Positions 39,187-50,719 of a DNA stretch of 64,000 bases are shown one piece after another. The translations under genes were made by a program, and so were the position numbers. This DNA is from Ectocarpus siliculosus (Eukaryota; Sar; Phaeophyceae; Ectocarpales; Ectocarpaceae), in NCBI GenBank assembly GCA_000310025.1, contig FN648493.1, positions 126,018 through 190,017 on the forward strand, given 5' to 3'. The first letter of the stretch is position 1. Every line of letters starts with the position of its first letter. A model generated the notes under the pieces. It did no database searches. It saw only the letters and a list, made by a program, of their open reading frames with translations, and was not told the origin of the DNA.

Positions 39187-41004
39187 TTAGTGGGGGCGCG
39201 CAACGTCATCAGGCAACGAATCAGTCCCAGCGTCACCACGCGACATGTCGATGTTGCGAAGGATTCCCTTAAAAAGGGCGCTGCCGCTGTGAACTTGGAG
39301 GCACCAGGATCCGGAGACGGCGGTTTCCACGGTGGAGTAGCGAACATCAGGAAGGGCGAGCTCGACAGGTCCAGGATCGTCTAAGAAGCGGACGACGTAG
39401 AAGTCGGACGGTAGAGGTGGTCCAGTAATCCTGCCCATCCACCAGAATCCATCGTGCGCTTTGTACCAGAAGAAGGCGCCTGCAGGTAGCGGAGTATTGG
39501 CGAAGCATCGGTCCCATGATGAACGAGAGACGAGCGAAAAGCCCGAAGGCAAGGCTCGCTCACCTTTAGCGCGCGCCATCTCGCGGGTGGCCGCACCAAC
39601 ACGCATCGCCCTATAGCGACGGTTCGTTTGGCGGTGTTGATCAGGCGAAGCCGTCCAGTACCGGAGAATGTGTGGCTTGGAATGCTGAAGGTCCATCTCA
39701 CGTTCCCAAGAAGGACGAAGAAGATCTTTCCAATGAGTTTGGTATAAAACAGCGATGGTGTCACCACGACCACGAACAGACTGATGGCCACAAATAATGC
39801 GGTCAACCTCGAGACGTTCGACCGGAGTCGACACGTCGTCTTCCGTAACATGGTAGGGAGGAGATTTATTCGCATAGGAGTTCAGCACATACGGTGTGAG
39901 GCCGGCAGGCAGGAACCGACGCAAGTCTTCAGTGTCGCGTGGATTAGCGCAAGGCTTGCAACGCGCAACCGATACACGATTTTCCGAGTCTGGACGTGGC
40001 AAATCCGATGGAAGATCCAAATAGAGTAACTTGGAAGCCAGAGGACAACCGTCGGGAGCGTCAGGACACGGACCCACGGCCAAGATCTTGAACAGACCAG
40101 TCCAGAGGAAAGACAACTTAGCCTTGAGAACCTTGTCATCCGTGCCTGAACGAACACCTTGGCGAATGGTAGATTCGGTGTTATACAACCAAACCCATCC
40201 ACCGACGGTGTATGAGGGAACCTTGCGCAAAGCATCCGATAGAGCGGAGTTACGACGCTCAATCCGCGAAACGGACAGGTTGTGCTGTTCACGAACTAGA
40301 TCGTAAGAACGACGTTGGCGATCAGCAGCAAGATCGCAATACTCAAGTTGATCGCGATGCAAGCTTTGGTGGCCTCGAGCATATGGATGCTCAAAAACCG
40401 TCATCGGCATGCGTCGGTTCATATGCACCTCGTTGGGCGCCAAACCAGTAGCGGCACTAACCGAATTGTTGGAGGAAAACTCAACGTGCGGCAGATGAAT
40501 GTCCCAATCATCTTGCCTCTCATTGACGGCCATAGCCAACATCTGAGCCATACTGTGATTGACGCGCTCCACACACCCATTGCCGTTGGGATGGCAAGAG
40601 CTATTAGCCACTTTGCGGATAGCCAGACGGGCGTGCACAGTCGGCGACAGTTTAGAACAAAACTGAGAGCCATTGTCAGACAAAAGACTCAAAGGGCAAC
40701 CCCACAAAGGGATATACCGATTGGCAAGGACGTCAGCGGTGCCTTCGGCGGTGAATTCCGCAGCCGTAACCGCGTACATATCAGCACGGCGGCTGAAACG
40801 ATCAGTGAAAGTAGAATGTATGTGTTTCCGCGAGGTGTCAACGGGAGGGGACCGAAATAATCGAAGCTCACCGACACACCAGGGCCCGAAGGCAGCGGAA
40901 GGCACAAAATAGGGCATCGAGGCGTTTGACGAGATGTTTTGCGGGCTTGGCATCGCAAACAATGCCGTACCCACCACTTCGTGCAAACACTCATGCCAAC
41001 CCAC
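39187..41004 (-). pseudogene. Integrase core, chromodomain and Tudor/SH3-like tail
   Basis: This 605-codon frame has DRFSRRADMYAVTA, LLSDNGSQF (second Asp, residue 110) and NGCVERVNHSMAQ (Glu, residue 146). The 35 residues between give the DD35E spacing. Residues ~265-311 (GGWVWLYN, WTGLFKILAVGP) match the C-terminal DNA-binding part. Residues ~395-452 read as a chromodomain (VERLEVDRIICGHQS, WEREMDL, ILRYW), which in chromoviruses directs insertion to marked chromatin. Residues ~505-560 (AGAFFWYKAHDGFWWMGRI, DFYVVRFLDDPG) form a second, Tudor/Agenet- or SH3-like module. The first ~60 codons are out of frame; the true chain enters from the 41402-40689 frame. Confidence 0.88.
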
Positions 41005-42304
41005 CAGTAGAAACGTTCCAGCATGCTAAGCGTGCGAGCGGCACCGAGGTGGCAGGATGCATCAGCGTGACAGGCTTGCATGATCCACGGACGCATGAGC
41101 ATGGGAACATAAATCCGAATAGGTTCGTCGATGGGAAGGCGAGCAGCACGCCCGTCAGGACGTGTGGTCGTGGATAACGGGGGCGCGGTTTGCTGGCGAA
41201 CGAGCAAGACCAAACCATCATCGTCAACATGTAACCGGCCTTTTGTGAGACAGGTCACGGATCTCCGACAGAGGAGGTCGACGAGCGGACGGAAGATAAT
41301 CCAGGAAATCCGAAGGGAGAGCCGAAGGCCGACCCAAAAGGATGAAACGAATAGCTGCATCACAAACAGGTTCGTTACGTTGCTTGCGGTCCCAATCAGC
41401 ATGCGAGAAACGTTCTACAGACGCCTGGAAGGCTAAATCTGGCGAAGAATGTAAAGCCGCCTCGATAGAAGAGGGAGCCGATTCCTGAGACTCCGACTGC
41501 AATCCACCCGAAGGCCGAGGAGCAGCGGAAACCGAAGACGAAGGCGTACGAGTGGTTGAAACCGAACGCGTCGGAGATTCCGAAGAATCGGGGGCAGCAG
41601 AAGACTGCGGGGCAGGAGCAACCGAAGTTGCGGGATGCGTCGAAGATGCAAGATCCCTTCCACGAGCCAGAGGCGTAGGAAGGTCTGGGATCGAAGCGTC
41701 AGCACCAGGAGTCGAAACCAACCTGGTCAAAACGGGGGCGTAGTCGATGCTGAAGGCGCGGGCGGAGAACGTCGAAACGATCGCCGCGAAGCGAAATTCG
41801 AGTGGGAGCAGGTGGGTCCTCAGAGAAGCTATAATTCACAGGCGGCACGGGCTTGCCTGCCACAACCGCCGTACGGAGGCGAGTCGGCGTGGAAATCACT
41901 TGAGTAGGGTCGAGAGTCCGTCGTGATGCGGCGGTCGGCGAGACGGCCGGCGAAGACTCGGGCTCGAGAGCCATAACATCCTCCACCGAAGAGTGTAAAG
42001 AGCCAGACCAAACGAGAGTCCGCTTACGCAGTCTCGAAGGAGGCAACGCGCGGAGCTTCTTGGACGGCCAGGGTGCGATGTTCCAGATGCCAGTCGGAGA
42101 CGAAAGGCCTGACGGCGAGAGACGTGGACCATGCCGACGGAAGTCGACGAAATCATCTGTAGAGGGGGCCAGCCCACCCAAGACCGAAGTCGGGGAAGTG
42201 GGGACAAGCCCACCCAAGCCAACACCCACGGCGCGATGGCCAGAAGGCGTAAGGCCACAAGAACGGATGAAGAACACGCGCTCCTCATCGTCATTCGGTG
42301 CCAA
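40689..42304 (-). pseudogene. Pro/Ser-rich linker and integrase zinc-binding domain
   Basis: After RNase H comes an unusually long low-complexity linker of roughly 300 codons in two frames (42304-41699, then 41730-41224), rich in Ser, Pro and Ala. It ends in a more structured stretch (ERFSHADWDRKQRNEPVCD). A further shift leads to the frame 41402-40689 with the integrase HHCC zinc module (ACHADASCHLGAARTL, WWVRHCLRC) and the first strand of the catalytic core, including the first Asp (VSFDYFGPLPL). Another frameshift near 40820 passes to the downstream integrase frame. Confidence 0.8.
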
Positions 42305-42325: not shown

Positions 42326-43740
42326 TCATTCCGCCACATCGATCGGAAGGCGAAAGAGGAAATCAGCGTTGCCATTTGCGGAACCCTTGCGGTACTCGAG
42401 AGTGAAATTGTAGGCGGTAAGAAATTCGAGCCAACGCTGAACGCGGGCGTTGTTCTGCCCCACCTTGGCAAAATGCTCAAGAGATTTGTGGTCGGTAAAA
42501 ATGCGAAATTGCGTACCCCACAAATAACCGCGAAGTCGTTTGATACACCACACGATGCTACCCGCCTCGAGGTCGAGGGGAGTCCAATGACGTTCGGAGT
42601 CCAAAGTAGCTCGGCTGATGAAAACGATGGATCGAATGGAGCTATCCGTCTGTTCTTGTTCGAGAGTCCCGCCGACCCCATCGCGACTAGCATCACAGTA
42701 GAGACGAAAAGGTCGCGAGCCGTCCGAAACGGCATCCCAATCCGGATAAACCAACACAGGAGGGTTGGCCAACTCAGATAGCAGGACGCGAACAGCTTGC
42801 CCCATGGCAGGGGTGAAGACGAATGTCGTCTGCTTCTTGAGAAGAGTGGTCAGAGGTCGAATTCGCGTAGCCATGTTGAGAAGGAACGTGCGGTAGTAGC
42901 TGAGGCCGCCGAGAAGAGAGCGAAGTTGTTTAACATCCTTGGGCATGGGCATTCTGGTGAGGGCCGCAACCTTGGCCCCGTTAGGCCGAACACCGTCGGG
43001 AGAGATGGTGTGGCCGAGGAAGTCCGCTTCGGTAGCGCCAATGGTGACCTTCGGTGGGGTGAGTTTCAAGTTGTGTGTACGGAAACGTTCAAACAGAGCG
43101 CGCAGGTATCAACATGAGAAGCAGGGTTGTCGTCGAAAACGATCAAATCATCCAAGTACGATGCAACACCGTGGAGATTTTTTATGACTTCGTTGACCAC
43201 CTTGCAAAACCACCCAGGGGCAGCAGAACTGCCTTGAGGCATCTTCAATCACTCAAAAAGCCCGGAAGACGTCACGAACGCCGTCAAAGGTATTGTATCA
43301 CGGTGAACCGTGATTTGGTGGAACGAAGACTTCACATCAAAAAGGGAATAAATTCGCCCTTTCGACAACTTGTCCAACGTATCATCAACTCGAGGAATCG
43401 GAAGCTGGCTCAAAGCACAAAGCTTGTTTTGCTTGCGATAATTGACAGTGATGCGAACACCACCAGGTTTCTTCGGTATGACTACCAAGGGACTCGAGTA
43501 GGGCGAGGTCGAATGTTGGATCAGACCAGCCGCAAGATATTGATCAAGGATCGCGTCAACTTGTTTCGCCACCGGGGGGTAAACGCGGTATGGACGAGAC
43601 GTGACGGGTGCACTGCCTGGAGGAACTGTAAGCTTGAAAGGAAAAAGCGAACAAGATCCGAAGTCGGTGGGGGAACTCGAGAAGACATCATGATAGTCGC
43701 ACAGGACGTTACCAAGCTGAGTGATGACATCTGAGTCCAA
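42326..43740 (-). pseudogene. Ty3/gypsy reverse transcriptase and RNase H
   Basis: The first part (43740-43249) has the gypsy RT N-terminus: RPYRVYPPVAKQVDAILDQ, SPYSSPLVVIPKKPGG, VNYRKQNK and FDVKSSFHQI. It ends at an in-frame TGA where RT normally has Trp (GLFE-stop-LKMPQG). The same frame continues with the catalytic YLDD. A frameshift near 43080 moves to the frame of the connection domain and RNase H (43069-42326): FLGHTISPDGV, LRSLLGGLSYYR, YCDASRDGVGG, FISRATLDSERHW, DLEAGSIVW and FTDHKSLEHF. Catalytic motifs are intact, but the chain is interrupted at least twice. Confidence 0.92.
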
Positions 43741-43755
43741 CCCGGACCATGGAGA

Positions 43756-46302
43756 TCAAAAGAAATCTCCGGAGATAGCAGGGGAGCTTATCCCACACGC
43801 GGGAAAACTCTGACGTTGTGCGGACGTCAACCGCTCGAGAAGAGCAGGCGGAGGCGACGAAAGAGAAGCACTGGCAGAACCAGGGTCCTCTTTGCCGCGT
43901 GGCGACGGCGTGGGTCGCTCATGCAAATTATACACGAAGGGGTCATCAATGCGACGCTCGGCAGACGAATCAATGCCACCTGTCGAAACAGGACCGGAAC
44001 CCAGTTGCCCGAAGCAATGGTGGGATCTTGAGCCGTAGATTGAAGACCATCGCTCAAACTGTGGCAAGACACAGCACTGAGAGGCACGCGAAGAAGGGGA
44101 GCCGAAGCTGTACGCAGAATGTCGCCTGGTTCGAGGGAAGAGACACCCGCGAGCGGGAGTCTTTGGCAACCTTTTTGCACAAAATGTTCCTCGGAAGAAA
44201 ACTTTAGCACATTTTGGAAGCATATCAACGAGATAGTTACCTACGAGAGCTGGAGAACCATCGCTGCGCACCAAATTAACCGGAACAAGGGGTGAAGTTG
44301 GATGTTTCCCAGCATAGCGAAGTTGGTAGTTACCATCCGTGGAAGACAAATCGTGAGCAAAAGGGGTGGCACCGCAACTGCCATGCTGAGCCAGAGTAAG
44401 CTCACCAAAAACACGATCACCAGGGCGTTTCGTACGCAAAGTGCGGTAAGAGCGGTCGCTAAACCGCATCCAACTGTCTCTCCCGAGGAGCACGTCATGA
44501 TGCATGACACCATCGGGAACAACGCACGCCCAAACAGCGAGAGAGGAAATAGGAAGGCGCTTGCGAAGAAACTGCACGCTCAAACGGACAATAGTCGAAG
44601 TTTGAAGCGGAGCAGATTCGCCGAAACCTTCCCAACAGCGAGGTTGGGTTTGTTTCTCAGACAACGACGAAGCGGCCGAAGCGGCTTTCATGGATTCCCA
44701 CGCAGATGCACTAATTAAAGACTGCGGGGAAACCGTGTCCAAAAGGGCAACACATCCAAACTGAACAGAAGCTGAACCACTGTGAGTGAGGATTTGGGTG
44801 GTGAAAGAGTCATCATCGATGGTAACAACACCATCAACCAAATCCGGACCTTGCTCCAGAAGCAAAGAAGAAGAAGAGGAGGGCGGGGTGCACCCGGAAG
44901 ACACGGCCCAAACAGCGGTGTCAGGCTCCGATGGAACATTCGCAGCGTATTGTGAAAACGACGCGAATCGTTTAGTCGACGGAGGGCGTGAGGCCGTCCG
45001 GAGACGCTGGTGCGTAGAAGGGCTAACTTCATAGACCGCGTTATGTTGAGATGACGTCGAAACTTGATCGCTGGGAGGCAGCAAACGAGAGCTGCGCTCG
45101 GGTGGCGGGGCACTGCATCGCAAAAGACTGCGTACTCGTTGAAGGGCGTTGCCCAACAAATTGAGGCCACGCCATCGAGAGAAGTATTGAGCATCAGGAT
45201 CATCGGCTTGAAGGCCGATGCCCCAAATACGGTCGTAGGGGCTGGCTTCGGCAAGGATTTTGTCGCCAGATCCGACAAGATGATCGCTTAACTCGGAGGT
45301 TTGACTAAATTTTGCGTAAGAGCCAGTGAGCACAATATTTTCGCCCTCGCGTTCCCGAAGAGGTGGGTCGAAACCACGGACACCGCGGCCAAACTTCTTG
45401 TGCAAGGCAGGATCGGACACGCGCATGATGTGCTGTAAAGCGCTATGGTCGTCGAAAAGACGAGCGTTTTCCGCAGTGAAAAACTGCTCAGCACACGAGT
45501 ATACCACTCCATCGACCACAAAAGTCGACGGTGTCCACTGGAAAAAGGGAGAGGGGGGCTGCCAAAAGAAGACCATTTCAGGAGTACAATACTCGTTAGA
45601 CGGGTCGAAGACAGCGGGAACTGCAGGAGTCGAAACACCTGGAGTGCGGTCAGTCGAAGCTGAGGTGGTAGCCGAAGCTGGTGTAGCCGAAGCGGAGGCA
45701 GCCGACACGCCCGCATTGTAATTTACGGCATGGACGTCCATGGGGACAGTCTCGGGTACGTCAGAGACCGGCGAAGAATCGACCGGAGCCGGATCTTTCG
45801 CAATGATTGGGCCAGCGACATCACGCTGGGTGCGCCCCAATTCTAAACCTGAAGAAACGCCTCGTAAGGTGTCATTCAACAGGCCGCTTTCGCTAGGGAC
45901 GGCAGCCAAGGCCGGGGCGGTTAAAGAACCAAAACGGGCGTGGTGCTCCCGGCCATTCCTCCCTGACAAGGTACGCGAGACCGCCGGCTGCTCGGAGGTC
46001 ACTCCGGGAGGGTCCTCGCGAAGCGGTGGTGTCAACACTGTCGACGTCGGTCGCGGCGGCCTGGTATTGGGCGCCGTGGGGCGAGCGTGCGTCGGAAGGG
46101 ATGGAGCGCTCGAAGACGATCCATGGTCGAAATATCTCGTGGCGGAATCTGATGGTGATTCGAAGCCAGGCGAATTTGACCCTGCAACTTGCCGGTAGGA
46201 ACCAGTGAAGTTAGCTACCGGTGCAACAATCGAGGGCGAACCCTCAGCGGAAGCGAGCACCGACGAGTTGAGCGTATCCGAAGATTCACCCGAGGTAACC
46301 AA
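43756..46302 (-). CDS. NADAR-protease polyprotein segment of the retrotransposon
   Basis: This 848-codon frame has four parts. Residues 1-240 are Ser/Pro/Thr-rich linker. Residues ~241-393 are a NADAR domain: FFWQPPSPFFQW, DGVVYSCAEQFF (E272), IMRVSDPALHKKFGR, SYAKFSQ, EASPYDRIWGIGL and RGLNLLGNALQRVR, the full run of family motifs. Residues ~470-625 are a retropepsin-like protease: LLDTVSPQSL, where the catalytic DTG has become DTV (residues 522-524), then VLLGRDSWMRF at ~603. The last ~150 codons after ~44190 look frameshifted; the neighbouring minus frame (44228-43827) has the more protein-like sequence. NADAR proteins cleave ADP-ribose N-glycosidic bonds, including ADP-ribosylated guanine in DNA. 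A role for this one is inference only. Confidence 0.8.
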   Translation of the reverse strand: MVTSGESSDTLNSSVLASAEGSPSIVAPVANFTGSYRQVAGSNSPGFESPSDSATRYFDHGSSSSAPSLPTHARPTAPNTRPPRPTSTVLTPPLREDPPGVTSEQPAVSRTLSGRNGREHHARFGSLTAPALAAVPSESGLLNDTLRGVSSGLELGRTQRDVAGPIIAKDPAPVDSSPVSDVPETVPMDVHAVNYNAGVSAASASATPASATTSASTDRTPGVSTPAVPAVFDPSNEYCTPEMVFFWQPPSPFFQWTPSTFVVDGVVYSCAEQFFTAENARLFDDHSALQHIMRVSDPALHKKFGRGVRGFDPPLREREGENIVLTGSYAKFSQTSELSDHLVGSGDKILAEASPYDRIWGIGLQADDPDAQYFSRWRGLNLLGNALQRVRSLLRCSAPPPERSSRLLPPSDQVSTSSQHNAVYEVSPSTHQRLRTASRPPSTKRFASFSQYAANVPSEPDTAVWAVSSGCTPPSSSSSLLLEQGPDLVDGVVTIDDDSFTTQILTHSGSASVQFGCVALLDTVSPQSLISASAWESMKAASAASSLSEKQTQPRCWEGFGESAPLQTSTIVRLSVQFLRKRLPISSLAVWACVVPDGVMHHDVLLGRDSWMRFSDRSYRTLRTKRPGDRVFGELTLAQHGSCGATPFAHDLSSTDGNYQLRYAGKHPTSPLVPVNLVRSDGSPALVGNYLVDMLPKCAKVFFRGTFCAKRLPKTPARGCLFPRTRRHSAYSFGSPSSRASQCCVLPQFERWSSIYGSRSHHCFGQLGSGPVSTGGIDSSAERRIDDPFVYNLHERPTPSPRGKEDPGSASASLSSPPPALLERLTSAQRQSFPACGISSPAISGDFF
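45120..45582 (-). other. NADAR domain inside the retrotransposon
   Basis: About 153 codons, uninterrupted, with all motifs I know for this family (bacterial YbiA, plant PyrR C-terminus): an aromatic PF-x2-W start, DG-x2-Y-x3-EQF, IM-x3-DP-x3-K-x2-GR, AKF-x-Q, EASP-x-DRIWGIG, and W-x-G-x-NLLG-x-AL-x-x-VR. It lies between gag and protease, where standard gypsy elements have no enzyme. Frames on both sides of the polyprotein are damaged, yet this part is not. Confidence 0.9.
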
Positions 46303-46695
46303 TTCAGGCGATTCCTCTTCAATCGTCCAAAGCGCACATGGCTACGGCCGGTCTGATCTGCAGACGACGGGGGGGGCGAACGAGCTGTGCCCGACAAACG
46401 AGCGGTACTCAATGGCCCCGAACGTCCTACGGTTGTATGGTTGTTATTGTGCGGCACCGAAGTACCAGAAAGAATAACATTCACCGAAGTGCGGTTATCG
46501 TTGCGTAGGACCGAAGTGCTAGAGGAAAAAAGTGTGTGACGGCGCGACAGATACCGAAGTTTTGTCGTTGTTGCATAAAACCGAAGTATTAGGGACAACA
46601 AAGCGTGACACACGAGCGTCTTGTGATGAACGAGACGAAGTCCCCGAAGATGCTGAAGGCGGTCCGAGGGAAGTAGGCGAACCACCGCCGATGAG

Positions 46696-47365
46696 TCATC
46701 CGCTGCGAGAACGACCACCATTTTGGAAGTTGCCAGGTTGACGGGCATTGTGATTGGTCGAAACCATGATGCCAGACGAAGGACCGGCGTGTACATGTGT
46801 TTGTGGTTGATAGAGGGACCGAGCACCAGTGTGGTCAGTGTGGTGGGTGTTGACCGAAGGGTGTTGCGGAGAGTGAAAGGTACCCGCAGAATTTCCCGGG
46901 GCATGCCCACTGTTGTGCGATTGTGTCTGATGAGCGTGAGGGGAACTACTACCGTCGGAACGGCGATTCCCAGCGTGGTTTCGACGCTGAGAGGACGAAC
47001 AGGAAGAGCGCTGGTGGCGTCTACCCTGATGGTTTTGGCGGTTGTCCGCACTTTTGCGGCGAAAAGACCGCATACGGCCTTGCCAACGTTTAAAAGCAGC
47101 AGAATCGTCTTTGAGAAGGATCGTCATTGAGGAGGCCCAAGCCCAACTCGGGGTTCAACAACCCACTAGTATTCGTGAACGGTGCAACGCATTGCTTCAT
47201 GGAATGGTCTTCACCCGAGCAGTTCAGACAGCGATTCCTGTTTTCGCGGAAGGCTTGAGAGCGAGCCTCTTGTATCAACAAAGGAGTCCACAAAAAAGGA
47301 TCATCCATGCTACGAAAACTAGAAGTGAGAGCGTATCCATCAGACCAATCGGCTTGCGAGGCAGG
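46696..47365 (-). pseudogene. Gag nucleocapsid: CCHC zinc knuckle and basic tail
   Basis: In the same frame as gag but after a TGA, CLNCSGEDHSMKQC is a classic C-x2-C-x4-H-x4-C zinc knuckle that would bind element RNA. About 60 codons on, the frame breaks at two tandem 16-base units (47104-47119 and 47120-47135, two mismatches). The +1 shift fits an accidental duplication. After it the other frame stays open as an Arg/His/Ser-rich basic tail to 46696, where another in-frame TGA occurs. Confidence 0.75.
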
Positions 47366-49237
47366 TCAAGAAATATAGTTGCGTGTGAAAGGGTCGGCAT
47401 CGTGCGATTGTACCGGTAAAACTACGGGGTTCTGAGCGGAACCTGGTGCCCGCTGGCCCGAAGGCGCGGGAGCGCGGTGTTGGGACCGTCGAGGCTGCAA
47501 GGAGCCACGCGTCGAAGACAACGAAAAATAATATGAACCGCCAATAGCCGGGGTTTTATTTGTCGCTAGAGGCGCGAACGCCTCCCACATATCCGCAATC
47601 GACACAAAGGGAGTGACGGCCGTGGCCAGAGCACCCGGGTACAAAATCGGAGACAAACTCGGAAACTGCTTGCAAACCGAATGCCGCACTATTTCTAGAA
47701 CCATGGATACACTAGGAGCCAGAGTACGCTCAGAGCCAGTCACAGACGAAACCAACAAACGGAAAGCACGAAGGTAATCCGCGGAAGAAGTACCATCTGC
47801 TACGACAAATTGTTGTAGCCGCAAAAACGACTCTTGACGGTCGCCGACATCAAATTGCTCTGCAAGATGACGCAACAGCAACTGAAAAGCTTCTGGTCCA
47901 GTGGCGCCGCCGTCCAAGCTTCTCTTCACCTGCTGAAAGTAATCAGTGATGGAGAGGACGAGATCGGCAGTAGAGGGCTTGTCAGGGGTGATCGCACTCA
48001 AAAGTTTCTTTTCGAGGGGTCGTTCCCACCCACGCACGAAATCGGTACCGTGCAACCCATCACTCTGCTCATCACACAACAACAAAATATCGGATAAAGC
48101 CGTACGTGTTGTGCGAAGATGCTGCTGATAGCCATCTCCCGGCGACAGAGTTGCAGGAAAGGGCATGGTAGCGACACTCTCGACTTTTTTCAAGTTGAAG
48201 GTGATGTACGCGCGTTTCACTGTAGTGACATGAGCCGCACGTGCATTAGCATCGGTCGCATCAATCGTGGCTTGACGAGCATGTGCGATGTTCGAAGAAA
48301 GTGGCAAAACACGATCATCAATGACAAGGGGTGGTGTGACAGCAGCTACCGAAGCAGCAGGGGGAGCATGGTCCGAAGACAACACAACATGCGGAACACC
48401 CGGCACAGGTGGTACAAATGCCGAGGGGGGGGTTGGATGCGAAAACCCAGGGTTCTGCACGATTCCTGAATCTACAGCATGGTGAGCGGTAGAAAAAACG
48501 GGGGGTGCAGCAGTTTCCGAAGAAACGGGGGGGGGCGAAGCCGGAGGAACAAAATCATCACGCAAAAAGAAACGAGCACCCGAAGTCGCGTCCATAAGGG
48601 ACGGAACTACATGCCTTTGGCGGCCCGGCTTGCGAGACAAGCTGGTGTCCGAGCCCGACCCGGTCCCGCTCTTGCCCTTGGAGCCACGGGCGCCATCCCC
48701 GCTACGCTTTGCCACCTTCCTCTCACGGCTCCCTCCCACCGAAGAAGACGAGGGCTCCGGGGGTCGCCGCGATGCTTCGGCCGAGCTCCAGCCAGACTCC
48801 TCTCCCGAGCTACCAGGACCACTCTCCCGACTCGAACGTGACGGTTGTGCCTTCTTGACACGACCTGGCGCTGGCTGCTGGAACCCACAGGAGGCCTCCG
48901 AAGACGGGCCGCTGCAGCCAGGGTACACCACGGGAGCAGTGGCGTGGGCGTTGGCCGTGCGCATCCTAGCGAGGAAACGGTCGGCCAGATCTCGAAGATC
49001 CGGACGGGAGGTGTTGGCCACGTCCACCGCCTCCTGGATGGTGACGACCGCCGGCAACGCGATGGACACTTCCGTGGCCAGGTCCCTGACCGATGCGCTA
49101 TCCCCAGGAAGGAAGTTAAACTGTTGGTATTGAGCCACATCAGACAGTTTGGCCGGGGTGAAACTAAAGTCGCCGGACCGGATAAAGGTGCCACAACCAA
49201 GTCCAGACAGAACAAAGGCTGCCCATTGTTGTATCAT
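47366..49237 (-). pseudogene. Retrotransposon gag, capsid part
   Basis: A 623-codon open frame starts MIQQWAAF and ends at a TGA. The first half is low-complexity (Ser, Pro, Arg, Gly; KKAQPSRSSRESGPGSSGEE), and the second half is a helical gag-like region (DYFQQVKRSLDGG, FQLLLRHLAEQFDVGDRQES, DYLRAFRLLV). An upstream in-frame stop just before the ATG supports this start. The next in-frame segment holds the zinc knuckle, so the TGA at 47366 separates capsid from nucleocapsid. It may be a decay mutation or, less likely, a read-through stop. Assignment rests on position and composition, as gag is poorly conserved. Confidence 0.75.
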
Positions 49238-49344
49238 ATGTTAAAGTTTGCGAGGGAAGCAGGCGGCGTTCTCCCTGCCGCGGCAAATGAACGAAAGGGT
49301 CGCAAGAGGCGGGATGAGTTGAAGAAATCAGCATGACGACAGAG

Positions 49345-49726
49345 AACAAGAACACGCTATTCTCGGCAACCTCTCCTCTCCCATCCCGCACATGCGATAC
49401 TGCCATGTCAGCTTCCTTGCGTCTCTTCCCGACCGTAGGGATTGGACCCCCAATTCTTCCCTTACGGCTGCATTACTTGTGCGCTTGGAGCATCCTAGGA
49501 TGATTTTCGCTGCTTTCATCTGCGCCGCCTCGAGGTCTTTCACTACCTTCTTATTTACTCCCCATACTTCTCCGGCGTACTCTAGCGGCGGTACGATTAC
49601 GCTCTTCAAAACCGCCAATTTGATGCGTGTATCGAGGTGCCGGTTTGCGAGTATTGGGTGCAGCTTCCCTGCTCTTGCTTTGCCCTTTTCCGCTACCTTG
49701 GACATGTGTGCATTCCACGAGCAGTA
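49345..49726 (-). mobile_element. Truncated LINE (non-LTR retrotransposon) fragment
   Basis: An open frame of ~120 codons matches the region after the RT catalytic core of non-LTR elements: KLHPILANRHLDTRIKLAVL, VIVPPLEYAGEVWGV, AQMKAAKIILGCSKRTSNAA and LGVQSLRSGRDARK. It stops resembling a LINE at about 49370, ~130 bases upstream of the gypsy gag start and in the same orientation. Either the gypsy element lost its 5' LTR here or one element inserted into the other. Confidence 0.75.
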
Positions 49727-50719
49727 GTGCTTCTGGTACTACATAATGATGAGAAAATATACAGATTGCACTCGCACTTATGAATTTAGCAGTCAAGATA
49801 TGCGGCCTCGAAAAAAATCAAAATCAAAGAATTGGCCATAAGAACACGTGCTCAGTCCCGACGGTGTTAAGAACAAGAACCTGCCTTCGTGGTGTAACAA
49901 TTGAATGTGCTTACCGATAAGAACAGAGCCCCAAAACGCGGCAGCTGCAAGAAGACAAGAACTCACGAAGGGGTGAGGGGCTACTCGCGGGGTGGCCGGT
50001 GGGCAGTTACAGATCAGCGGCGAGGAGGGGGTTCCTTTGAAATAGTACTGGTGCGGAGGGGGGTGCCATCTCTCCGACTGTTTCGGTACGCATGTATGGA
50101 AGGCGAGCCAACAAACTCGGTTGCCCCCGTCAGCATGCTCGGAAACAAACAAACAAACCATGCTAGTGAGAGGAGTCGTGGAAGGGCCGTTGACGCGGCG
50201 AAGGGGGTGGAAATCATACGACACATGGATGTGCACTACTGCTGTAGCATAGCTTGTCTACAACCTACAGTACGCACCGGCAGCGCCCTCCTCCTGTTCC
50301 TGCTTTGGCTGCGCGCCCTCTTGCTGTGCGCTGCACTCTGATCTTCCCACTTCAACAGGTACTGCCCAATCCGTCTCACCGTCAGTAGCCATCGGTCAAC
50401 CTTCACCAATAAGTGTGACACTCCCCCTTCCTCCTCTTGGTCCTCGGGCACTCGTCGGCGGAAGCGATGTGGAATCTGGGGAACTCGGTAACCTGGTGAC
50501 CTACGCTGTAGTCGCTGGTGTACCGCTGGCGGCAGGGCGAGACTGTTGGAATCGTCCAATCAAACAAATCGCAAAATGGCACTCTCTCAAGCAAGCCGGC
50601 AGAGGAGCAGAGGAGCTCTCTTCCAGAGCAGCTAGCAAGGGGCAACGGTGTCCGTGGGCCGCTCGCGCTTTCGTCGACAGCAAAAAGATTTCGTTTTTAC
50701 TTGTCTCTGGCGCGAAGTG
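49727..50719. other. No gene identified; upstream flank of the lipocalin gene
   Basis: No frame on either strand is convincing. The lipocalin promoter and 5' UTR should be in the right part of this stretch, but no TATA-like or other signal was clear. Confidence 0.5.

Follow-up and report, generated by a model that had tools for sequence, protein, structure and literature searches.

The 64,000-nucleotide stretch of Ectocarpus siliculosus DNA analysed here (contig FN648493.1, positions 126,018 to 190,017; hereafter the window) contains a decayed Ty3/gypsy retrotransposon, and between the gag zinc knuckle and the protease of this element lies a NADAR domain (45121-45582, minus strand). A first-pass annotation of the window had placed the domain at 45120..45582 as a built-in part of the polyprotein, and this placement is correct; the plus strand across 45120-45582 is interrupted by stops, so the coding strand is the minus strand. 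The domain is a real NADAR: in a Pfam profile search it matches PF08719 significantly and from end to end (E 5.3e-38; 131.3 bits against a cut-off of 35.1). The sequence also matches two PDB chains, 8bau (NADAR; E 1.1e-14) and 2b3w (E. coli YbiA; E 1.6e-4), and is predicted to adopt the YbiA fold. The domain order proposed at first holds, with NADAR downstream of the knuckle, upstream of the protease and in frame with the latter, the knuckle being in a different frame in this copy. The closest named protein matches are from Ectocarpus, with identities of up to 96%.

Eight residues contact ADP-ribose in the NADAR of P. nicotianae as described in PMC11543638 (E43, K50, R79, W89, R93, E125, D130 and W133), and we mapped these by hand via the sequence-to-PDB alignment, the chain numbering being that of the paper plus two. 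All eight are kept in 29 of the 32 copies read from the window's genome, a biased choice of copies with a high NADAR score or long frames (L031 was excluded as the same copy as L013). In all 32, the window copy included, the E125 position holds glutamate and not aspartate or histidine, which is the mark of the YbiA subfamily. The element NADAR is predicted to fold like ADP-ribosyl hydrolases and to have their active site. The window copy itself, judged by its sequence, is dead and not a working example. It lacks equivalents of K50, W89 and R93, such that the "full set of NADAR motifs" first seen in it stands for the full-length profile match and not for three of the eight contact residues. Its protease motif reads DTVS, against DTGS in four sister copies of group A (the copies read were sorted by NADAR identity into six groups, A-F, labels of our own), its reverse transcriptase (RT) segment carries two in-frame TGA stops, and its gag knuckle has slipped out of the frame shared by NADAR and protease.

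Searching the whole genome (189 Mb, 492 contigs) reveals at least 150 scored NADAR matches out of 230 candidates, many of them partial. With the RT piece as query, a NADAR is found 1075-3104 bases upstream on the same strand for 130 of the 150 scored RT relatives, counting the NADAR matches listed; some of the 20 others may have been missed or may lie near contig ends. Four of these 20 were inspected and none has a NADAR upstream: one has a protease without NADAR, and three have neither within 2 kb. No complete element without NADAR was seen among those four, and no wider search for such elements was made. The domain thus recurs at one place in the family. Over deep divergence, the conservation of NADAR resembles that of RT. 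Polyproteins bearing a NADAR are also present in public ENA or NCBI assemblies (P0126, P0128, P0129, P0132, P0133, P0134 and P0188). The NADAR of P0128 is identical to that of a local copy, and its source may be the same or a close species, while the other six are 55-73% identical to the domain of L014.

Knuckle and NADAR share one frame in 15 of the 19 copies with a recognised knuckle, and in 11 of the 19 a UGA followed by C is the sole stop between the two. The same UGA-C stop is found in group B (L023) and group F (L026). When the flanks of three groups were searched across the genome with the stop position left free, TGA was present at every one of the 84 exact-flank junctions (26, 37 and 21 matches), window copy included. 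Since the copies are related, what counts as independent evidence is that groups A/B, C, E and F agree; the group D junction was unrecognised in the two copies examined. UGA-C is generally a leaky stop context. A fixed in-frame UGA-C between gag and pol therefore suggests that NADAR is probably produced by readthrough, within Gag-Pol, and from these junction sequences we consider readthrough likely.

The origin of the domain was examined in trees. A tree of 59 NADARs has one clade, with support of 99/95, that unites five cellular genes (two from Ectocarpus, one each from Pylaiella and Scytosiphon, and one further) with 18 rows that are elements or resemble them; outside it fall 12 viral rows, 23 bacterial or other rows, and Chrysoparadoxa. 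The host genes are interspersed among the elements in this tree; in another, 21 element rows form a single clade (77/94). Sampling covered 12 of the 80 viral loci and a selection from the 120 listed stand-alone proteins, the bootstrap runs were unconverged, and rows were dropped from the first tree (P0006, incomplete) and from the second (P0006, P0189, P0121, P0186, P0028, P0050 and P0111). The window's own genome holds a cellular NADAR gene at C24:2125206-2127066, where two matches share 81% and 92% identity with P0007; being split over separate matches, it probably contains introns. That element NADARs and brown-algal cellular genes share a clade suggests exchange with a host gene and not a recent bacterial capture, and the tree favours a shared ancestor of the element NADAR and the cellular gene of brown algae, with transfer possible in either direction. 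We note that the brown-algal cellular proteins P0007, P0008, P0012 and P0029 have a Cys/His-rich N-terminus (C...C...H...C), possibly a small zinc finger.

Other sources were tried. NADAR relatives are encoded at 185 viral-contig loci (best 52% identical; 80 kept), and a viral source was rejected, the 12 tested rows falling outside the element-host clade. A recent bacterial source was put forward in PMC12477816, where horizontal acquisition was proposed on the ground that the blastp hits were almost all bacterial; it is not favoured here, the brown-algal cellular genes being nearer in the tree, and a deeper source may still be bacterial. Among the proteins collected, some show NADAR in other fusions: with an RNA polymerase domain (PF00623) in P0189, whose name assigns it to Beauveria, with mRNA-capping domains (PF03919, PF03291) in P0190 on a 48-kb contig, both of virus-like look, and with ADP-ribosylglycohydrolase (PF03747) in P0148, P0158, P0164, P0165, P0168 and others, Pedobacter among them.

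What might the domain do? NADARs, including E. coli YbiA, are reported to strip ADP-ribose in vitro off guanosine of both DNA and RNA (PMC11125620, PMC11543638, PMC11833690), which makes a nucleic-acid substrate plausible for the element NADAR. Occasional readthrough of UGA-C would yield Pol, including NADAR, as a minor product, and NADAR would enter the particle as Gag-Pol, together with RT and integrase. Inside the particle it could clear ADP-ribose off the guanines in the RNA or complementary DNA (cDNA) of the element and thereby keep reverse transcription unblocked; a guanine adduct is expected to hinder reverse transcription, so that an eraser in the particle makes sense. Our best explanation, which we hold as a whole with moderate confidence, is that a Ty3/gypsy lineage of brown algae has long carried NADAR as an enzyme domain, made by readthrough and packaged with RT as a putative guanine de-ADP-ribosylase with a possible counter-defence role. 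A bolder version, in which lineage and host traded such an enzyme and the element packages it via UGA readthrough to erase a host-made mark on its RNA or cDNA, we consider doubtful; if true, brown algae would be shown to use ADP-ribosylation of nucleic acids as a defence against retroelements. If the domain does work as an eraser inside the particle, this would speak for ADP-ribose being used by some eukaryotes to mark nucleic acid that is foreign or mobile. To our knowledge, PMC11543638 included, such marking has so far been seen mainly in bacterial toxin-antitoxin systems. A stop suited to readthrough, a conserved active site and a link to a cellular gene together make for a definite, testable functional hypothesis.

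Several results weigh against this explanation. A six-frame, intron-blind search of the window's genome for a writer enzyme of guanine ADP-ribosylation, which the element NADAR would oppose, gave no match to DarT-like or KptA-like transferases; PARP gave four weak exon-like matches in a search of the same kind. RNA structure 3' of the stop was unremarkable at eight junctions (z -1.19 to +1.09), and in Tca2, which has a gag-UGA-pol arrangement, the junction sequence by itself gave no readthrough in yeast according to PMC2194720, such that this arrangement may use another bypass. Choosing copies for high score or long frames over-represents intact ones among those read. The constraint across copies that the first-pass annotation proposed to measure is apparent in the RT-like conservation over deep divergence; within group C, the ratio of nonsynonymous to synonymous substitution rates (dN/dS) is 0.83 (28 pairs; proportion of synonymous differences, pS, only 0.008). 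Lastly, a smaller tree built with a different outgroup draws Chrysoparadoxa and two further rows into the element-host clade, at a lower support of 87/96.

Alternatively, NADAR could act in the host cell and not in the particle, stripping ADP-ribose off host proteins or degrading small ADP-ribose signals of an antiviral response. The PARP-like exons would be in keeping with this, as is the proposal that NADARs in animal RNA-virus polyproteins target host macromolecular ADP-ribosylation (PMC9503650). However, a low-level readthrough product would be scarce in the cell, and the published assays report guanosine in nucleic acid as substrate, with no protein substrates there (PMC11125620, PMC11543638, PMC11833690); we regard such a role as unlikely, though a serious contender. 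A module that binds ADP-ribose or nucleic acid, aiding assembly or targeting integration to ADP-ribosylated chromatin, would suit a lineage with a weakly scored chromodomain at the integrase end, which suggests that the lineage reads chromatin. Yet catalytic glutamate and lysine are kept alongside the binding residues across groups, and a mere binder need not keep both, which makes this distinctly unlikely in our view.

The suggestion in PMC12477816, by analogy with RNA viruses, that the domain acts otherwise on the RNA intermediate of transposition, by repairing or processing it, seems very unlikely to us, the NADAR assayed in PMC11833690 having been inactive on ADP-ribosylated RNA phosphate ends. 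As to a one-off host-gene insertion in the window copy or a functionless passenger, one could point to the decay of this copy and to the single RT relative, among the four inspected, that has a protease and no NADAR upstream. The number of matches and the constant place upstream of RT reject the one-off insertion, and with the RT-like conservation over deep divergence they leave either version extremely unlikely.

The remaining parts of the element (Table 1) follow the Ty3/gypsy (Metaviridae) order of gag knuckle, protease, RT, RNase H and integrase. No pair of long terminal repeats was found in the window, nor in three sister copies whose sequence pieces may not span both ends. The chromodomain match (PF00385) fails to reach the cut-off both in three sister copies (E 0.0021, 0.11 and 0.027) and in the window copy. 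After it, the end of Pol holds a conserved stretch, WYKARDGLWWLGKI...VVRFLDDPGP (window 39190-40002, minus strand; L034, L035, L036), which by eye looks Tudor- or SH3-like in three groups; Pfam gave no match for this tail, the PDB profile was not significant (E 0.27), and an AlphaFold2 model, with a predicted local distance difference test score (pLDDT) of 33.8, was too poor to use. In PMC12477816, it is another Gypsy lineage to which a Tudor domain is assigned. Relative to sister L121, the 3' untranslated part of the window copy has an extra ~1.1 kb between 37494 and 38627. Upstream of gag, a 136-codon frame (49328-49738, minus strand) resembles by eye the C-terminal part of a reverse transcriptase protein of long interspersed nuclear element (LINE) type.

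Table 1. Features of the NADAR-bearing element in the window.
Feature	Position	Strand	Evidence
NADAR domain, YbiA type, decayed	45121..45582	-	PF08719 and PDB matches; 3 of 8 contact residues lost
861-codon stop-to-stop open frame with NADAR and protease, N-terminal part of Pol	43756..46341	-	open reading frame list, Pfam
Gag-pol UGA stop, next base C	46696..46698	-	among the 84 of 84 exact-flank junctions
Gag zinc knuckle CX2CX4HX4C, CLNCSGEDHSMKQC	47189..47230	-	motif
624-codon frame, assigned as gag from position; no Pfam match	47366..49240	-	open reading frame list
Aspartic protease motif LLDTVSPQS (four sister copies: DTGS)	44719..44745	-	motif comparison
Reverse transcriptase segment (C87:169074-169535 in the genome)	43057..43518	-	88% identity over 155 residues to an intact sister; two internal TGA stops
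RNase H, PF17917 and PF17919	42326..43108	-	Pfam
Integrase zinc-binding domain, PF17921	40689..41414	-	Pfam
Integrase core PF00665 (below cut-off), with weak chromodomain match near 39655-39810	39187..41025	-	Pfam
3' untranslated part common to sister copy L121	37195..39114	-	sister comparison

The first-pass annotation did not recall this architecture as described; it is already known. PMC12477816 (Genome Biol 2025), the only relevant paper found on NADAR or YbiA in connection with retrotransposons or transposable elements, reports that Pol begins with a NADAR of the YbiA family in one of the Gypsy lineages of Ectocarpus sp. 7, the one that includes Gypsy-12_Ec32, and that all families of this lineage carry the domain. 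Compared by description, our element shares with that lineage the NADAR at the N-terminus of Pol. The words readthrough, stop codon, frameshift and catalytic are absent from the main text of that paper, and in its account of the lineage the gag-pol stop, the catalytic residues and the cellular homologue go unmentioned; the fixed UGA-C stop, the contact-residue survey, the tree with cellular genes and the relatives in public assemblies are the additions made here. The same paper describes Tx1 elements of Crassostrea gigas, likewise retrotransposons with a YbiA-family NADAR, which by their description differ in being LINEs with the NADAR-like domain in ORF1. Tca2 of Candida similarly has an in-frame UGA between gag and pol, but is described with a potential pseudoknot 3' of the stop, where none is evident in the algal element, and with no NADAR reported (PMC2194720). 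The RNA-virus NADARs of PMC9503650 also lie inside a polyprotein with a polymerase, although the account there concerns positive-strand RNA viruses of invertebrates and no retroelements. E. coli YbiA and the P. nicotianae NADAR (8bau) are stand-alone proteins, 31-35% identical to the element NADAR in structural alignment. The closest cellular relatives, 54-58% identical and in the same clade, are the brown-algal NADARs (P0007, P0008, P0012, P0029 and the gene on C24), which differ from the element domain in standing alone behind a cysteine-rich N-terminus.
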